Below are positions 3,701-33,622 of a stretch of DNA of 33,630 nucleotides, piece after piece. This stretch comes from Streptomyces afghaniensis 772. GTDB lineage: Bacteria; Actinomycetota; Actinomycetes; Streptomycetales; Streptomycetaceae. The notes beneath the pieces are model-generated. The model made no database searches and was not told the origin of the DNA. It worked only from the letters and a program-made list of their open reading frames with translations. Position numbers and translations under genes: made by a program. How positions within the stretch are numbered: the stretch's first letter is position 1; the number at the start of each line of letters is the position of its first letter. The stretch lies in contig KE354505.1 in NCBI GenBank assembly GCA_000415505.1, positions 1 through 33,630 on the forward strand. The letters are read 5' to 3'.

Positions 3701-4477
3701 GTGCCCAGCAAGAAGGCCCTCGTCCGCCGCCCCAGCCCGCGTCTTGCCGAAGGGCTGGTGACCCACATCGAGCGGGAGAGGGTCGACGCCGACCTCGCGG
3801 TCGAGCAGTGGGAAGCGTACGTGGCGGCCCTGCGCACGCACGGCTGGGAGACCATCGAGGTGGACCCGGCCGACGACTGCCCGGACTCGGTGTTCGTCGA
3901 GGACACCGTCGTGATGTACAAGAACGTGGCGCTGATCGCCCGCCCGGGCGCCGAGTCCCGGCGTGACGAGACCGCCGGCGTCGAGGAGGCCGTGGCGGGT
4001 CTGGGCTGCTCGGTGAACTGGATCTGGGAGCCGGGCACACTGGAGGGCGGCGACGTCCTGAAGATCGGCGACACCGTGTACGTGGGCCGGGGCGGGCGCA
4101 CCAACGCCGCCGGCGTCCAGCAGCTGCGGGCCGCGTTCGAACCGCTGGGCGCGCGGGTCGTCGCCGTACCGGTGACCAAGGTGCTGCACCTGAAGTCGGC
4201 CGTCACCGCGCTGCCGGACGGGACGGTCATCGGGCACATCCCGAAGATGGACACGCCGTCGCTGTTCGGGCGCTTCCTGCCGGTGCCGGAGGAGGCCGGT
4301 TCGCACGTCGTGCTGCTCGGCGGTGACAAACTGCTGATGGCGGCCAGCGCGCCGAAGACCGCGGAGCTGTTCGCGGACCTGGGGTACGAACCGGTCGTCG
4401 TGGACATCAGCGAGTTCGAGAAGCTCGAGGGATGTGTGACGTGCCTCTCGGTGCGGCTGCGGGAGCTGTACGCCTGA
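3701..4477 (+). CDS. ddaH: dimethylarginine dimethylaminohydrolase (DDAH)-type hydrolase
   Basis: A 258-residue guanidino-modifying hydrolase of the DDAH/arginine deiminase superfamily, which converts N-omega-methylated arginine to citrulline and methylamine. Visible family marks are the acidic DSVFVEDTVVMY segment near residues 65-76, the EPGTLEGGDVLKIG loop near 109-122, the catalytic His at about 163 in VLHLKSAVTAL, and the catalytic Cys at about 248 in EGCVTCLSVRL. Length and His/Cys spacing match the bacterial DDAH type. The start is GTG at 3701 with GGAG about nine bases upstream. It follows the Orn/Lys/Arg decarboxylase by 206 bases, so a separate promoter is possible. A close citrullinating homologue with a different substrate cannot be excluded. 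Confidence 0.88.
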   Translation: MPSKKALVRRPSPRLAEGLVTHIERERVDADLAVEQWEAYVAALRTHGWETIEVDPADDCPDSVFVEDTVVMYKNVALIARPGAESRRDETAGVEEAVAGLGCSVNWIWEPGTLEGGDVLKIGDTVYVGRGGRTNAAGVQQLRAAFEPLGARVVAVPVTKVLHLKSAVTALPDGTVIGHIPKMDTPSLFGRFLPVPEEAGSHVVLLGGDKLLMAASAPKTAELFADLGYEPVVVDISEFEKLEGCVTCLSVRLRELYA

Positions 4478-26543: not shown

Positions 26544-29226
26544 CTACCCGGCTCCGGCGCCCGCCTTCAGCGCCGCCCGCGCCCGTGCCGCCAGCCCGTC
26601 CGCGCCGCAGGAGACCGCCAGGCCGAGGCCGCGGTCGAGGTCGGTGGCCGAGCGGGCGGCGATGCCGTACTCGATGCGGGCCGCCGCGTGCTCGTACTGG
26701 CAGGGCGAGGACTCCAGGTAGGTGACGGCCTGGGCGGCGAGGCGGACCGCACGCTGGCCGGTCTCCAGGGCGGCGGCGCAGCGCAGGGCCTCCCCTATGG
26801 CGGTGTCCGTCCGAAACGCTCGGCCGGCGGCGGACGTCGACGGCGAGCCGGGCGGCACGGGCCGGGTCCTCGGTGGCCAGGGCCCGGGCGAGGTCGCCCG
26901 CCCAGGGGACGAGCACGGGGTTGTGGTGCCCGCGCGCTGCCGCCGCCTTCTCGGCGGCCTCCAGTTCGTTGACGCCGTCCTTGGTGCGGCCGACGGCCAG
27001 CAGCAGCCGGCCGCGCACCGAGCGCGGGTCCGGCAGCACGATGGTGGACGGGTAGGGCGGGGCGAAGCCGTACCGTTCGGCGACCTCCCAGGCCTCCTCG
27101 ACATGGCCGCGGGCGAGCAGTGTGTCGACGAGGTTGCAGGTCGCGGACCAGTACAGAGGAAGGCGGCGGCCGACGCGCTCGGCGAGGCGCAGCGACTCGC
27201 GCAAGGACTCCTCCGCCTCCTTCAGCCGGCCCCGCCTGCGGTGGCCGAGCCCGACGTAGGCGTGGGCCAGGGCGAGGTGGCCGCCGCTCCAGCCGGCGGT
27301 CTCGTAGGCGCGCAGGGCCTCGTTGTAGAGGGTCTCGGCGCGGTCGAGGCGGTCGGTGAAGGCGTACGCGTTGGCCAGCATCAGGAGCAGTTCGATGCCC
27401 CACTCGGTGTCGGTCCAGCCGAGCCCCGGGGCCAGGCGGCCGTTGACGAGGGCGCGGTCGCACAGTTCGACGACCTCCTCGGCGTTCTCGCCGTGCATCA
27501 GGGCGTCGAAGCCGCGCAGGATGAGCAGGGCGCGTTCGGAGTTGTCCCGGCCGGTGCAGGTGCGGGCGAGGTCGGCGAGCCGCCGGGAGCGGTCGGGTGA
27601 GGTGGCCTCGCCGGCGTGGATGCCCTCCCACATGAAGTGCACGGCCTGGAGCCGCATCCGGGCGGGGCCGGGCTGGAGCCGGGCGGCCTCCGCCTCGACC
27701 GTGCGGACGGCCTCCTCCAGCTGGTCGTTGTGGAGCAGCGCCTGGGAGAGCCGGAAGACGGCGTCCACCCGCTTGTCGCCGTCGAGGCCGGGCATGCCGA
27801 GCGCGGCCCGCAACTGGCTGATGGTGCGGGCTGGCGCGGTGAGGAAGGTGGCCTCGGCCAGTTCGTACAGCACGTGCGGGTGCGTCTCGGGCCGGGGCGG
27901 CTCCTTCAGGGCGCGCTCCAGGCAGCGGCGGGCCGCGTCGGGTGCGCCGACGGCGAGGTGCTCGCGGGCGGCCTCGCGCAGTTGCCCGACGAGTTCCTCG
28001 TCGTCGTCCGGGTGGACTTCGAGGAGGTGCCGGGCGGCGGCAGCGGCGCCGTGTCCCTCGTCGGCGACGATGCGGGCGGCGATACCGTGCATGGCGGTGC
28101 ACAGGGCGTCGGGGATCGAGTTGTAGACGGCGGTGGCGATCAGCGGGTGGACGAACTCCAGATCGCCTTCGGCTGTGCGGCCGGTCGCGGGGTCGGGGGC
28201 GGTGAGGATGCGGGCGGTGCGCAGCAGTTCGGCGCAGCGGCGGGCCACGTCGGGCTTGAGGGTGGCGAGCTTGGCGACCAGGTCGATGGAGATGCCGGTG
28301 CCGAGGATGGCGGCGGCCCAGGCGAACCTGGTGGCGTCGATGCCGAGTTCCTCCAGGCGGGCGACGAGGCCGCCGCCGCGGGCCGAGCGGTTCAGCTCGC
28401 GCAGTTCGCCGGCGCGGGCCTCGACCGGTTCGAGTTCGCTGTCCTGCACCTTGGCGAGGAGTTCGACGGTGTCGTAGGGATTGCCGGCGGTGACGGCCCA
28501 GACCTCGCGGCAGAACGCGGCGTCGGCGTGTTCGCCGAGGGTGGCGCGGGTGAGTCCGGCCGTGGCGTCCGGGGTGAGGGCGCTCAGGGTCGTGGCGGGG
28601 CCGTCCGCGGCGGCGGCGACGGTGTCGAGGAGACGGGCGCTCGTGCCGGAGACCTCGCCCGGGCGGCGGGTGACCACGACCAGGACGGACATCTCGTCGC
28701 GGCGTTCGGCCAGCGCGGCGAGCCAGTGCAGGGTCTCCTGGTCGGCCCAGTGGGCGTCGTCGATGAGCAGCACCAGCGGCCAGTCCCGGCGGGAGAGCCG
28801 GCGCACGGCGGCGACCAGGCCGTCGCACACGCCCTGCGGGTCGGCCTGCCGGTCGCCGGGGTCCGCTATGCCGAGGGCGGGCCCGGCGATGTCGTACCAG
28901 TCGCCGAGGTACTCGCGGGCCTCCTCCGGCAGCATCGACAGCAGCGCCGGTTGCAGTAACTGCCGTACGACGTTGAAGGGGACCGACCTGAGGGTCTCGC
29001 CGCCGCGTGCCGACCAGACCTGGCAGCCGTGTGCCTCGGCGATGCGGCGGGTTTCGGCCAGCAGCGCGGTCTTGCCGAGCCCGGCCTCGCCGCGGAAGAC
29101 CAGCAGCCCGCCGGACGAGGAGCGGTCCGCGCACAGGCTGTCGACCGCCCGCGCGACGGCGGCGACTTCCTCGTCGCGCTCCCACAGGGAAGCCGAGGCG
29201 GCGGCCGTGGGCCGTACCTCCGTCAT
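26544..29226 (-). CDS. large LAL-like ATPase/TPR protein without a LuxR DNA-binding domain (frameshifted near the C-terminus)
   Basis: About 894 residues when repaired, starting at ATG 29226 with GGGAGG upstream. An AAA-type ATPase module leads: Walker A GEAGLGKTALL (about 46-56), Walker B VLLIDDAHWAD (about 137-147), then EVSGTSARLLD and the winged segment found in LAL/MalT-type regulators. From about 430 on there are helical TPR-like repeats (HPHVLYELAEATFLTA, HLALAHAYVGLGHRRRGRLKEAEESLRESLRLAERVG). The end ...LAARARAALKAGAG shows no LuxR helix-turn-helix, unlike typical LAL proteins. Between 26811 and 26825 the frame shifts: the stretch between the two good frames spells 'AERFG' in the third frame, so two missing bases, one in each of two CC pairs (26811-26812 and 26824-26825), fit best. 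Function: an NTPase signalling protein, target unknown. Confidence 0.8.
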
Positions 29227-29402
29227 CCCGCTACCTCCCGAAGTCGCCCGAACGACGTACAGACGTCGAGCGTAGCCGTCCGATTGCCTGAGTGGAGGAT
29301 GGACGGGGCACCTGTTGCCGTGACGGGTGACACCGGGTGCGATCGGACGACGTACCCGGGCCGTCACCAGCCGTCTTCGCGTCAACGGCGTGCAATTGCA
29401 GG

Positions 29403-29410
29403 GGAGGTGA
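29403..29410 (+). promoter_or_regulatory. near-ideal ribosome-binding site GGAGGTGA at the transporter start
   Basis: GGAGGTGA is an 8-base match to the 3' end of 16S rRNA. The annotated-type GTG start (29407) lies inside it, too close to be used with it. Five bases after it comes ATT (29416), in frame. This leaves the true start open. Confidence 0.5.
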
Positions 29411-30717
29411 CGTTCATTCACCACACCGGGGAGACACGTCGGGGCCGGCGGGCGCTGGTCGCCGGGTCGGTGGGCAATCTCATCGAATGGTACGAGTTCG
29501 GCGTCTACGGCTACTTCGCGACGATCATCGCGGCACGGTTCTTCACACCGGAGGGCGGCAGCGAGGCCGAGGCGTTGGTGAAGACGTACGCGTCGTTCGC
29601 GCTCGCGTTCTTCTTCCGGCCCGTCGGGGCGGCGCTTTTCGGCCGCCTGGGCGACCGGGTCGGCCGTCGTCCTGTGCTGGTCCTGGTGATCACGCTGATG
29701 ACGGTCGCGACGGCGCTGATCGGCGTGTTGCCGACGTACGCGCAGGCGGGAGCCCTGGCGCCCTGGCTGCTCACCTTTCTGCGGGTGCTCCAAGGGTTGT
29801 CCGCCGGTGGGGAGTTCGGCGGCGCGGTGTCGGTGATGACGGAGTTCGCGCCGCCGGGCAGGCGAGGGCTGTACGGGTCGTTGCAGTCGTTCACGGTGGC
29901 GCTGGGGCTGCTGGCCGGTGCGGGCGCGGCGGCGTTGCTCGCCACGGTGCTGACCGAGGAGCAGTTGGGATCGTGGGGCTGGCGGCTGCCGTTCCTGCTG
30001 ACGCTGCCGCTGGGGCTGGGGGCGTTGTGGCTGAGGCTGCGGCTGGACGAGACGCCGGCGTTCATGGCGGAGGCGGCACGGGAGACGCCTCCGCCGCGCG
30101 AGGTCGCCAGAGCCGTCGTGCTGGGCGCGGGGCGGATCATGGGCTGGGCCGCTGCCGGTTACACGTTCCTCGTCGTGCTGCCGTCATATCTGCAGAGTTC
30201 GCTGGGCGCGACCTTCCAGCAGGCGCTGGTCGCCACCGTGCTGGCCAACCTGGGCTTCGCCGTGACGATCGTGCCGGCGGGGCTGCTCAGCGACCTGCTC
30301 GGGCGGCGGACGGTGATGCTGACGGGGGCCGTGCTGGTGGTGGTCCTCGCGGTGCCGCTGCTCAACCTTCTTCAGGAATCCGGCGTTTCGAACACCGTGA
30401 AGGGTGTGGCGGTGTTCGGCGCCGGTGCGGTGGTGGGGCTGATGGCGGGGCCGGGTCCGGCGATGCTGTCGGAGATGTTCCCGGCCCGGGTGCGCTGCAC
30501 GGGCCTGGGACTCGCCTACGCGCTGTCCAATGCGGTGTTCTCCGGGTGCGCCGGGCTCATCATCACGGAGACGATCGAGCGGACGGGGAGCGTGGACATC
30601 CCCGCGTACTACGCGGCGGTGACGTGCGCGGTGAGCGTGCCGGCGCTGCTCACGCTGTCCGGGCGGGGGGTGGCCGAGGAGGCAGAGGAGAAGGCTGGAC
30701 GGACGGAATGCGGGTGA
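29407..30717 (+). CDS. MHS-family (metabolite:H+ symporter) major facilitator transporter
   Basis: A 436-residue inner-membrane transporter with 12 predicted hydrophobic segments. Family marks: SVGNLIEWYEFGVYGYFATIIA in the first segment, RPVGAALFGRLGDRVGRRPVLV between segments 2 and 3, and RVLQGLSAGGEFGGAVSVMTEFAPPGRRG at about 120-148. The MHS branch carries organic acids, proline/betaine and dicarboxylates; the substrate here is unknown, though an aromatic or keto-acid would suit the nearby pca genes (inference). The start is uncertain: GTG 29407 (MTFIHHTGETRRG), an in-frame ATT at 29416 that is better spaced from GGAGGTGA, or an upstream ATG at 29299. The TGA stop lies inside the first unit of a 14-bp tandem repeat that runs to anmK. 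Confidence 0.92.
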   Translation: MTFIHHTGETRRGRRALVAGSVGNLIEWYEFGVYGYFATIIAARFFTPEGGSEAEALVKTYASFALAFFFRPVGAALFGRLGDRVGRRPVLVLVITLMTVATALIGVLPTYAQAGALAPWLLTFLRVLQGLSAGGEFGGAVSVMTEFAPPGRRGLYGSLQSFTVALGLLAGAGAAALLATVLTEEQLGSWGWRLPFLLTLPLGLGALWLRLRLDETPAFMAEAARETPPPREVARAVVLGAGRIMGWAAAGYTFLVVLPSYLQSSLGATFQQALVATVLANLGFAVTIVPAGLLSDLLGRRTVMLTGAVLVVVLAVPLLNLLQESGVSNTVKGVAVFGAGAVVGLMAGPGPAMLSEMFPARVRCTGLGLAYALSNAVFSGCAGLIITETIERTGSVDIPAYYAAVTCAVSVPALLTLSGRGVAEEAEEKAGRTECG

Positions 30718-30805
30718 ACGGATGCGGGTGAACGGATGCGGGTGAACGGATGCGGGTGAACGGATGCGGGTGAACGGATGCGGGTGATCGGATGCGGGTG
30801 ATCGG
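30708..30805 (+). repeat. seven tandem 14-bp units (ATGCGGGTGAACGG) joining the transporter stop to the anmK start
   Basis: Units start at 30708, 30722, 30736, 30750, 30764, 30778 and 30792. Units 1-5 are identical; units 6 and 7 read ATGCGGGTGATCGG. The transporter's TGA (30715-30717) is in unit 1, and unit 7 is the first five codons of anmK (Met-Arg-Val-Ile-Gly). Each unit has an ATG and a GGTGA that stands four bases before the next unit's ATG. Every ATG in units 1-5 opens MRVNGCG-stop and that of unit 6 MRVIGCG-stop, each overlapping the next; only unit 7 leads into anmK. Confidence 0.97.
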
Positions 30806-31946
30806 ACTCATGTCCGGGACGTCGTACGACGCCATCGACGCGGCGGTGGCCGACCTGGACCTCGTCGGCGACAGCCTGGTGCTGAAGCCGCTCGGCATGG
30901 TCAGCGAGCCGTACGACGGTGAACTGCGCGAGGCCCTGACCGCCGCCCTGCCGCCGGGGCACACCACGCTGGGCGAGGTGTGCCGGCTGGACACCCTCAT
31001 CGGGCAGGCCTTCGCGGCGGCCGCGGTCCGGGCCGACCGGGAACTGTGCGAGGGGTTGGCCGGGTTGGTGGCCTCGCACGGGCAGACCGTCTACCACTGG
31101 GTCGCCGAGAAGGAGGTGCACGGCACGCTCCAGCTCGGGCAGCCGGCCTGGATCGCCGAGGCGACCGGGCTGCCCGTGGTCGCCGACTTCCGGCCGCGGG
31201 ACATCGCCGCCGGCGGGCAGGGTGCCCCGCTGGTCAGCCTGTTCGACCTGCTGTGGCTGCGGGGCCGGCCGGGCAGGCCCGTCGCGCTGAACATCGGCGG
31301 TATCGCCAACCTCACCGCGCCCGACGGGACCGCCTTCGACACCGGGCCGGGCTGCGCGCTGATCGACGCGGCGGCCCGCGGGTTCAGCGGCGGAGCCCTG
31401 TCCTACGACACGGACGGGGCGCTGGCCGCCCGCGGCCGGGTGCACGGGCCGCTGCTGGACCGGCTGCTGGAGGAGCCGTACTACGCGCTGCCCGCGCCCA
31501 AGACGACGGGCAAGGAGCTGTTCCATCTCGGTCGTCTGCGGGACGCGCTGGCCGGGTTCGGGACGCTGCCCGCCGAGGACGTCGTCGCCACCCTGACCAT
31601 GCTCACGGCCCGGACGGTGGCGGACGCCGTGCGGTCGGTGGGCGCGACGGAGGTCGTCGCCTCGGGTGGCGGTACCCGCAACCCGGTGCTGATGGGGATG
31701 CTCGGGGAGCTGCTGCCGGGGGTGGCGGTGCGCACCTCGGACGAACTGGGGCTGCCGTCCGGCGCGAAGGAGGCGTACGCCTTCGCGGTCCTGGGGTTTC
31801 TGACCCTGCACGGCCTGCCCGGCACCGAGCCCGCGAGCACGGGGGCACGGCATCCGAGCGTGCTGGGGTCGGTGACCCCCGGCCGGGAAGGGCTGCGGCT
31901 GCCCCCGCCGGCCGGCCGGGGGCCGACGCGCCTGCTGCTGGACTGA
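30792..31946 (+). CDS. anmK: anhydro-N-acetylmuramic acid kinase
   Basis: A 384-residue kinase of the ASKHA fold that opens the 1,6-anhydro ring of anhydroMurNAc and phosphorylates it, returning cell-wall sugar to metabolism. Marks: VIGLMSGTSYDAIDAAV (about 3-19, phosphate loop), LVASHGQTVYHW (about 93-104), VADFRPRDIAAGGQGAPL (about 132-149), ALNIGGIANLT (about 167-177), FDTGPGCALIDA (about 183-194) and EVVASGGGTRNPVLM (about 288-302). The ATG at 30792 is the seventh of a ladder of tandem ATG units; it is the only one that opens the long frame. Ribosome binding would use the GGTGA of unit 6. The last 50 residues are extended and Pro/Gly-rich. It is 74 bases after the transporter stop and may be transcribed with it. 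Confidence 0.95.
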   Translation: MRVIGLMSGTSYDAIDAAVADLDLVGDSLVLKPLGMVSEPYDGELREALTAALPPGHTTLGEVCRLDTLIGQAFAAAAVRADRELCEGLAGLVASHGQTVYHWVAEKEVHGTLQLGQPAWIAEATGLPVVADFRPRDIAAGGQGAPLVSLFDLLWLRGRPGRPVALNIGGIANLTAPDGTAFDTGPGCALIDAAARGFSGGALSYDTDGALAARGRVHGPLLDRLLEEPYYALPAPKTTGKELFHLGRLRDALAGFGTLPAEDVVATLTMLTARTVADAVRSVGATEVVASGGGTRNPVLMGMLGELLPGVAVRTSDELGLPSGAKEAYAFAVLGFLTLHGLPGTEPASTGARHPSVLGSVTPGREGLRLPPPAGRGPTRLLLD

Positions 31947-32003: not shown

Positions 32004-33622
32004 ATGACGCAGGAGACTCCTCCCGGGTGGTACCCCGACCCCGGGCAGAAAAGTGACGGGCCCGCCACCGAGCGCTGGTGGGACGGCAGGGCCTGGACGG
32101 ACCGCATCCGCCCGGCACAGCCGACCGCGACCTGGGGTCCCGCTACGCGCGAACCGGCCCCTGGCGAGGCCCCGTCGGGAGATCCGGCACCCTCAGGCGA
32201 TACGCCGCCCGCGGGGCAGCAGGGTGGTGCCGCCGGGCAGCAGAACGGCGTCGGACAGCCGGAAGCGGGACAGCCCGCCGATGCCGGGGCACCGGGAGCC
32301 GCTGGGAGTCCGGCCGGTACCGGGGATCCAGGCGGTGCCGGGGATCCAGCTGGCGCCGCACAGCCGACCGGCGTCGGACAGCCGGAAGCGGGACAGCCCG
32401 CCGATGCCGGGGCACCGGGAGCCGCTGGGAGTCCAGGCGGTGCCGGGGATCCAGGCCGTGCTGGGGATCCAGGCGATGCCGGACAACCGACCGGCGTCGG
32501 ACAGCCGGAAGCGGGGCAGCACGCCGGGGCACCGGGAGCACCCGGGAGTCCGGCCGGTGCCGGAGAGCCGACCGGCCCGGGAAATCCCGGAGCCTCCGCG
32601 TATCCGGCGAGTGCCGGACAGCCGGGAGCCGCCGGGGCCCCGGTCGGCGCCGGGGCACCGGGCGCCTCCGCCTACCCGGGTAGCACCGGACAACCGGGAG
32701 CCCCCGCGTATCCAGGCGGCCCTGGGTATCCGCCCGGCGCCGGGTATCCCGCGGCCCCGGGGTATCCCGCCTACCCCGCCGCTCCTCCGGCCGCCGGTCG
32801 AGGGCGAGGGCTGCGGATCGGGATAGCCGTGGCGGCAGCCGTCGTCGTCCTGGCCAGCATCGGTGTCGGCGTGTACGCGTTGACCGACAACGGCGGCTCG
32901 GGCGGCGGTTCCGCCACCTCGCAGGGGCCCGGCGGCCCGGGCGGAGCCGGGGGTCAGGGCGGGCCGTTCGGCGGACCGGGCGGATCCGGAGGTTCCGGCG
33001 GCGACGGCGGATCCGGTGGCTCCGGAGGTTCCGGCGGGGACGGCGGATCCGGTGGGCAGGGTCCCTCGCCCGAGCAGTCCGAGCCGCCGAAGATCAGGAG
33101 CGGGTCGGTGACCGACTCGGTCAGCGGGATCAGCCTGCCGATCCCCAAGGGCTGGTACGGCCAGGAGGTCAGGGCCGGCGCGCAGGTGACGTCCGACGAC
33201 TCCTACAAGTGCCCCGGCGACACCACCTCGACCTGCACGAAGGGCGGAGCCTACTCGGCCCCGGCCCTGGCCCTCGGCACCAAGGGCAGCACCGCCGAGG
33301 AGATCGCCAAGGCGGACATCGCGGCGAACGCCGAGGAGTCCTACGGCGGCAAGTCCTACGGCGGGATCACCTCCCACGACGTGCTGGCCGCCGAGTCCGT
33401 GACCGTGGCCGGGCAGAAGGGCTACCTGGTCCGCTGGAAGGCCATCACGAGCAAGGGCGCCGACGGCATCGTGGAGTCGCTCGCGTTCCCCTCCCCGCGA
33501 ACCAGAAGCTGATGGTCGTCGTCCGCTTCGGCGTCGACGCCGACCAGAAGGAGTCCGTCCTGGACGAGATCACCAAGGGCATCAAGGTGTCGACGGGCGG
33601 TGGCAACGGCCAGACCGTCTGA
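32004..33622 (+). CDS. DUF2510 membrane protein with Gly/Pro/Ala-rich repeats and an external C-terminal domain (frameshifted near the end)
   Basis: About 539 residues when repaired. An N-terminal DUF2510 motif (PPGWYPDPGQ...ERWWDGRAWTD, about 6-37) is followed by a long Pro/Gly/Ala/Gln-rich region (about 50-260) with three 41-residue repeats, a single membrane span (IGIAVAAAVVVLASIGVGVYAL, about 272-293), a Gly/Ser/Asp linker, and an external domain (about 370-539) that begins SVTDSVSGISLPIPKGWYG and has two Cys (KCPGDTTSTCTKGG). The frame from 32004 stops at 33512 soon after ESLAFPSP; the true end (NQKLMVVVRFGVDADQKESV ... GQTV) is in another frame and ends at 33622. One missing C in the CCCC at 33497-33500 explains this. 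TACGGT ends six bases before the ATG, so the message may be leaderless. Function unknown. Confidence 0.82.
32247..32590 (+). repeat. 123-bp (41-codon) tandem repeat inside the DUF2510 gene
   Basis: Units start at 32247, 32370 and 32493, each opening with codons for GVGQPEAGQ. Units 1 and 2 are nearly identical over the first 60 bases; unit 3 is diverged and shortened. The period is a multiple of three, so copy number can change without breaking the frame. A shorter GGATCCGG/GGTTCCGG repeat follows at about 32980-33055 in the Gly/Ser linker. Confidence 0.9.

Follow-up and report, generated by a model that had tools for sequence, protein, structure and literature searches.

The anmK gene of Streptomyces afghaniensis 772 is preceded by tandem copies of its own start. 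In the stretch of 33,630 nucleotides analysed here (the window), seven ATGs follow one another at 14-nt spacing at positions 30708-30805, and the seventh (ATG7) is the start codon of anmK, a cell-wall-recycling gene of this soil bacterium. We estimate a probability of roughly 0.7 for the reading that the array was born by slippage as a tandem copy of the anmK start, that it is tolerated, and that it helps 30S subunits to start directly at ATG7. The array would then be a start ladder of variable copy number and a variant of translational coupling.

The array lies between two forward-strand genes. The upstream ORF (29029-30717, counted from the earliest possible start) encodes an MFS/MHS-type transporter, which matched PF00083 (E 1.1e-39) and PF07690 (E 1.6e-28) in a profile search and ends with the TGA at 30715-30717. 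The downstream gene, anmK (30792-31946), encodes anhydro-N-acetylmuramic acid kinase of 384 aa (PF03702, E 7.3e-115). The ATGs are located at 30708, 30722, 30736, 30750, 30764, 30778, and 30792. TRF assigned a period of 14, 7.4 copies, and 97% matches to 30703-30806, with a score of 185 that was the highest in the window among all periods under 100. Units 1-5 (30708-30721, 30722-30735, 30736-30749, 30750-30763, and 30764-30777) are ATGCGGGTGAACGG, and units 6 and 7 (30778-30791 and 30792-30805) are ATGCGGGTGATCGG. The ORFs opened by units 1-5 (30708-30731, 30722-30745, 30736-30759, 30750-30773, and 30764-30787) read MRVNGCG before the stop, whereas ORF 6 (30778-30801) reads MRVIGCG and overlaps anmK by 10 nt. 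Sequence, TRF, and ORF reading thus bear out the initial annotation, which had described seven 14-bp units with anmK coding sequence as the last, an ATG in each unit with GGTGA four bases ahead of the next ATG, and overlapping 7-codon frames in units 1-6. The exact copy number of seven is taken from a single draft assembly of 1724 contigs. Seven near-identical adjoining copies exclude chance as the source of the array.

The array had also been said to run exactly from the transporter stop to the anmK start. This does not hold at the transporter end, because the transporter TGA sits inside unit 1, so that the first 10 nt of this unit are shared with the transporter and lie in its frame. An extra A ahead of ATG1 shifts the left edge of the array 1 nt out of register. 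The transporter ends with the residues EEKAGRTECG in the window and with EEKAG in S. coeruleorubidus; the window's transporter therefore seems to have lost the stop at that point and to run five codons further, into the array. In the anmK frame, a TGA at 30771 is followed by no ATG, GTG, or TTG up to ATG7, which makes ATG7 the only possible start of anmK. No sigma-70-type promoter or terminator patterns were found in 30400-31000. Within anmK, 31398-31485 gave a sub-threshold Rfam match to malK-III RNA (23.7 bits against a gathering threshold of 50), which is probably due to chance. The ORF downstream of anmK contains a 123-bp tandem repeat (32231-32526, 2.4 copies at 90%), and TRF found 32304-33055 to be rich in 9-, 18-, and 36-bp repeats.

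The ladder's strongest predicted ribosome site is that of ATG7. Duplex energies, which include looped pairs, were calculated with what we take to be the 16S tail sequence. They were -16.0 kcal/mol for ATG7, -11.3 for ATGs 3-6, -11.7 for ATG2, and -8.0 for ATG1, and the median for anmK over 93 junctions was -12.2. The stronger site of ATG7 results from the A-to-T difference in unit 6, which places GGTGATC instead of GGTGAAC ahead of the anmK start codon.

The repeat unit is the first 14 nt of anmK itself and not an alien element. The identical 14 nt open anmK in 52 of the 93 distinct Streptomyces junctions, and at junctions with several 14-nt copies the extra units differ from the local anmK start by at most one mismatch. 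The repeat unit thus probably stems from unit 7. To these 93 junctions, which are distinct sequences, a first pass of 86 had contributed without 13 reverse-oriented loci and 2 contig-end loci. The underlying genus searches matched anmK in 163 of 392 genomes, with 30 loci among the matches listed, and then gave 133 loci, 80 of which were kept. A second set comprised 60 further stretches, 59 of them readable, so that loci from 90 of the 163 matching genomes were covered overall.

Extra start copies were present at anmK in 8 of the 93 junctions, in a comparison that took one genome per species. Besides the seven copies of the window, there are three in S. africanus and two each in S. coeruleorubidus, S. 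massasporeus, S. lomondensis, S. viridochromogenes, and genome G207. In S. bluensis, anmK is preceded by a 17-nt unit of another sequence, ATGAGGGTGGCTGAGGG, which occurs twice. The same array in locus L256 was the sole extra-copy junction among the 59 further readable stretches. In both, the 17-nt units are joined by the canonical ATGA overlap (-4), and the second ORF of S. bluensis overlaps anmK by 10. Shorter stutters before anmK were not scored as copies: L072 and L113 have a doubled ATGCGG there, and the repeats of L098 and L247 are irregular. The initial annotation had proposed to compare the junction among related genomes and took a fixed unit number as evidence against its reading; the junctions showed one, two, three, and seven copies. 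Copy number at this one locus thus differs between genomes, which makes the array a variable-number tandem repeat between species. The anmK tree forces at least five changes of label, all on well-supported branches, which would correspond either to five gains or to about four together with one loss, in genome G197. Start duplication at anmK is therefore recurrent, and in one case it involves the different 17-nt unit. G197 has a single copy although it is nested in a duplicated clade, which indicates that loss is easy or retention weak.

An older imperfect repeat, in which the stretch 5' of anmK resembles codons 2-5, is the likely seed of the array. Of the 92 junctions with enough flank, the 84 single-copy ones were compared, leaving aside S. 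bluensis and the seven junctions with several 14-nt copies. Positions -11 to -1 and +3 to +13 were identical at a mean of 5.6 of 11 sites, against 3.2 at control offsets, and identity of at least 7/11 was found in 32 of the 84 junctions against 1.7% of controls. As a seed, this repeat is both short and imperfect; part of the resemblance arises because both stretches look like a Shine-Dalgarno site. Replication slippage, or unequal recombination, could have occurred between these resembling stretches on the two sides of the start codon, with the transporter stop/ribosome-binding stretch (for example GGTTGANCGG) and anmK codons 2-5 (CGGGTGATCGG) as partners. The single-copy junction of G197 has GGGTGACCGG ahead of the ATG, which looks like a fused product. 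In S. coeruleorubidus, S. africanus, and S. lomondensis, the transporter TGA is followed by an A (TTGAACGG), and the same base distinguishes units 1-5 (GGTGAACGG). This adds a third reading of the A/T difference, which the initial annotation had ascribed to a more recent copy event shared by units 6 and 7 or to amplification of units 1-5 from a mutated unit: units 1-5 may be hybrids of the stop segment and anmK codons, though a lone base is no proof.

Such units would be tolerated because they lie outside the AnmK frame and each restores the ribosome-binding sequence, the TGA, the 4-nt spacing, and the ATG. The last copied segment would supply the anmK ATG with the strongest predicted site, where 30S subunits could bind directly, and ribosomes finishing minicistron 5, whose stop is 4 nt upstream, could aid the anmK start. 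In our view, anmK most likely starts by direct initiation at ATG7, with ORF 5 lending local help, and we rank this above a relay of ribosomes along the units and above a switch by unit parity.

The array may instead be a neutral stutter that has no effect on translation, the site before ATG7 alone setting AnmK output, and we give this somewhat less than even odds. Short arrays between genes are widespread in Streptomyces: four ATGs at 14-nt spacing occurred in 179 of 384 genomes and were also frequent in the reversed control, so that an ATG ladder as such is not special. Stutter of this kind is ordinary in Streptomyces, and its placement over a start is the unusual part. Most of the ATG arrays read do not end at gene starts. 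Among 30 such loci, the final ATG begins a coding-like ORF in the window's own (384 aa) and in L225 and L238 (both at least 501 aa). L215, L227, L235, and L239 have coding-like frames from an earlier ATG only, and L226, with a frame of 312 aa and 73% GC at second positions, was left out of the count. In L238 (G317:C4, minus strand), degenerate 14-nt ATG units run up to a FAD_binding_3 ORF, the true start of which is unsure. The single copy of G197 within a duplicated clade is also as expected of a neutral stutter. Against neutrality stands the rarity of start-spanning duplications in G197, where 1.6 Mb with 1161 coding-like ORFs yielded 2 raw non-triplet cases, both judged interior, compared with about four probable origins at anmK. 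Across 110 loci with 432 distinct coding-like ORFs, anmK included, start-spanning hits were obtained for eight anmK genes and for three further ORFs, of which just the one in L090 was hit at its first start. This comparison is biased since the anmK locus was chosen via the window; its fair part consists of the three origins that lie outside the clade of the window. The repeated origin at anmK may also reflect a mutational hotspot instead of selection. In L090 (S. alfalfae, 4270-4314), a 16-nt unit with TGATGA, in about 2.6 copies, lies at what may be the start of a gene downstream of anmK.

The initial annotation had ribosomes of the transporter pass from minicistron to minicistron to anmK, with copy number tuning AnmK translation. 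We regard this relay as plausible, though less likely than not. Each unit does have a complete start context and recreates the usual geometry of TGA, 4 nt, and ATG. The in-frame stop of the transporter is 4 nt ahead of anmK in 39 of the 93 junctions and 3 nt ahead in 7, and any stop triplet, regardless of frame, is 4 nt ahead in 53. The transporter frame reaches 80 nt into anmK in 9 junctions, so the 4-nt geometry is common and not universal. Eleven junctions have no upstream transporter match, and the remainder are scattered, including a few with no resolved transporter frame (e.g., S. massasporeus). In the window, the gaps between stop and start are +4 and -10, and the stops of the transporter and of ORFs 1-5 are each 4 nt ahead of an ATG, the first being ATG2. 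From the transporter stop to the anmK start the distance is +74 nt. Coupled pairs work best at stop-start distances of about -4 to +3 and more weakly to about +40 nt. The 74-nt gap is beyond the usual reach of direct coupling, which would be weak given the dependence on distance in PMC10666635 and PMC12548453, although one study cited in PMC12548453 reports coupling also at longer spacings. The array comes within the coupling distance only via the minicistrons, so that coupling to the transporter would need a relay. Short ORFs that deliver ribosomes are an accepted idea in the same source (PMC12548453).

In the window, the spacing is awkward for a simple hand-over. A forward hop over TGA, 4 nt, and ATG covers 28 nt, that is, two units. 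The series ATG1-3-5-7 ends at anmK, whereas hops from the transporter stop lead to ATG2-4-6, and the stop of the last ORF is 10 nt inside anmK. Ribosomes derived from the transporter would therefore skip anmK, and a simple hand-over would require a backward restart over 10 nt. In S. coeruleorubidus and S. viridochromogenes (two copies, transporter stop at 18 nt), the hop likewise overshoots anmK by 10. Moreover, ribosome loss is expected at each hop. In S. africanus, the transporter stop is 32 nt and the first ORF stop 4 nt ahead of anmK, so that the hop from the transporter reaches anmK. In G207 (locus L028), owing to a base change (ATCTG), the extra unit reads as a 4-codon ORF that ends in TGATG and overlaps anmK by 1 nt; this unit would deliver ribosomes to anmK.

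A second, unrelated junction, before an S9-peptidase gene, also varies in 14-nt steps, with zero to three extra. Four TGATG steps 14 nt apart were found in 24 of 376 genomes, with reversed-control hits in 7, and of the loci read, only L225 and L324 run up to a likely gene start as judged by codon-position GC. In L324 (1501-1545; G134:C1:1423945-1423989), the upstream frame ends at a TGATG, and the short frames MVTP, MVIL, and MVSR, each closed by a stop and joined by TGATG, lead to the S9-peptidase gene (PF00326). The ladder is also seen in L340 and L350. Relatives of this junction were matched in 177 of 179 genomes; among the 30 loci listed, 13 with at least 80% identity (G134 included) were compared and 17 more distant ones excluded. 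TGATG was present at offset 0 only in three of the 13, at 14 only in five, at 0 and 14 in one, at 0-14-28 in one, and at 0-14-28-42 in one, and was absent in two. The presence of TGATG at every step in L339 and L340 favours a relay at such ladders. L225 (G081:C233:30304-30376, minus strand) has 4-codon units (MSGA or MSAA, then a stop) joined by TGATG, with six ATGs, before a PMT_2 glycosyltransferase ORF; judged by its sequence, it is a candidate third ladder, the assumed start of the PMT_2 ORF being unsure.

Alternatively, the upstream ATGs could act as decoys that capture ribosomes in useless 7-codon ORFs and so reduce AnmK or break its coupling to the transporter. The predicted sites of ATGs 2-6 are indeed near the anmK median. 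This reading is nevertheless unlikely, since the site of ATG7 is the strongest and the stop of ORF 5 just ahead of it would bring ribosomes rather than remove them. Quite improbable, in our judgement, is a class of self-copying stop-start ladders in Streptomyces operons, with units of 3n+2 nt (14, 17), whose copy number would set the hand-on of ribosomes and act as a parity phase switch at anmK: given the two-unit hop, adding or dropping one 14-nt unit would flip coupling on or off and leave AnmK unchanged. Inflation of the copy number by the assembler is very improbable despite the 1724 contigs of the source genome, because 98 bp fit within one ordinary short read, the units are not all identical, and independent assemblies of relatives have two and three copies at the same site. 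Direct repeats with fixed spacing can serve as binding sites for proteins, but an operator-like DNA or RNA array lying over the start by accident is the least credible reading, as the unit is made of anmK start sequence, the site in S. bluensis is occupied by another unit, the RNA fold of the array is no better than that of shuffled sequences (z -0.70; 51 of 200 shuffles as good), and Rfam gave no match inside the array.

In the mostly open-access literature searched, on start or ribosome-site duplications, MIRU-like coupling, Streptomyces repeats, and anmK, we came across no start-codon ladders like this one. Translationally coupled genes, as outlined in PMC12548453, share with the present junction a co-directional pair, a stop and start a few nucleotides apart, and a Shine-Dalgarno sequence near the stop, and the single-copy TGA-4 nt-ATG junction is common; here the junction is tandemly copied, with up to six spare starts in a species-dependent number. 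The nearest named system is the MIRU, a repeat at gene starts that occurs in variable copies and whose short ORF is coupled to the gene that follows (PMC12548453; PMC2734929). MIRUs are described there as dispersed, apparently mobile elements of 40-100 bp, whereas the present unit has 14 nt and stems from the gene's own start, and that of the S9-peptidase ladder is unrelated; the array thus has neither the length nor the dispersal of a MIRU. In the genome of S. afghaniensis itself, the search gave the junction along with two weak matches, both to stretches that are not part of the array, which does not fit a dispersed element. In the other 353 genomes of the genus searched, the two-unit pattern (at most one mismatch) occurred in eight, at one place each, which likewise speaks against a dispersed family. 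Seven of the eight matches are at anmK starts and the eighth is in G100; six of the seven are single-copy junctions, where the match comes from the likeness of the stop stretch to the unit. The ATGA overlap (-4 nt) of MIRUs with the next gene is absent in the window, where the gaps are +4 and -10.

The TAACTGA heptamers of Beggiatoaceae and some cyanobacteria are also short direct repeats by start codons, and differ between two Cyanothece strains mostly by 7-nt indels; as far as the source describes them, they have little Shine-Dalgarno character and no ATG and occur genome-wide (PMC4679880), whereas the present unit is gene-specific and is the start context itself. Copy variation beside a gene start is further known from fpg1 of Mycobacterium tuberculosis (PMC2734929) and from Moraxella tracts (PMC4679880), in which the length of upstream tandem repeats goes with expression; the accounts in these sources, which for fpg1 are of mRNA levels, describe no start codon in the unit.

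Stop-start modules like these are otherwise built by hand for reinitiation studies. The anmK junction, with one, two, three, and seven copies, and the S9-peptidase junction, with zero to three extra steps, form a natural copy series, which allows a direct test of how far ribosomes travel after termination and whether short overlapping ORFs hand them on. The series also shows how a gene tolerates, or uses, repeated duplication of its own start codon. If the array is only neutral, it is a warning that gene-start annotation at such junctions can err. If a class of self-copying ladders did exist, copy number would be a fast-mutating setting of the ribosome flow to the next gene.
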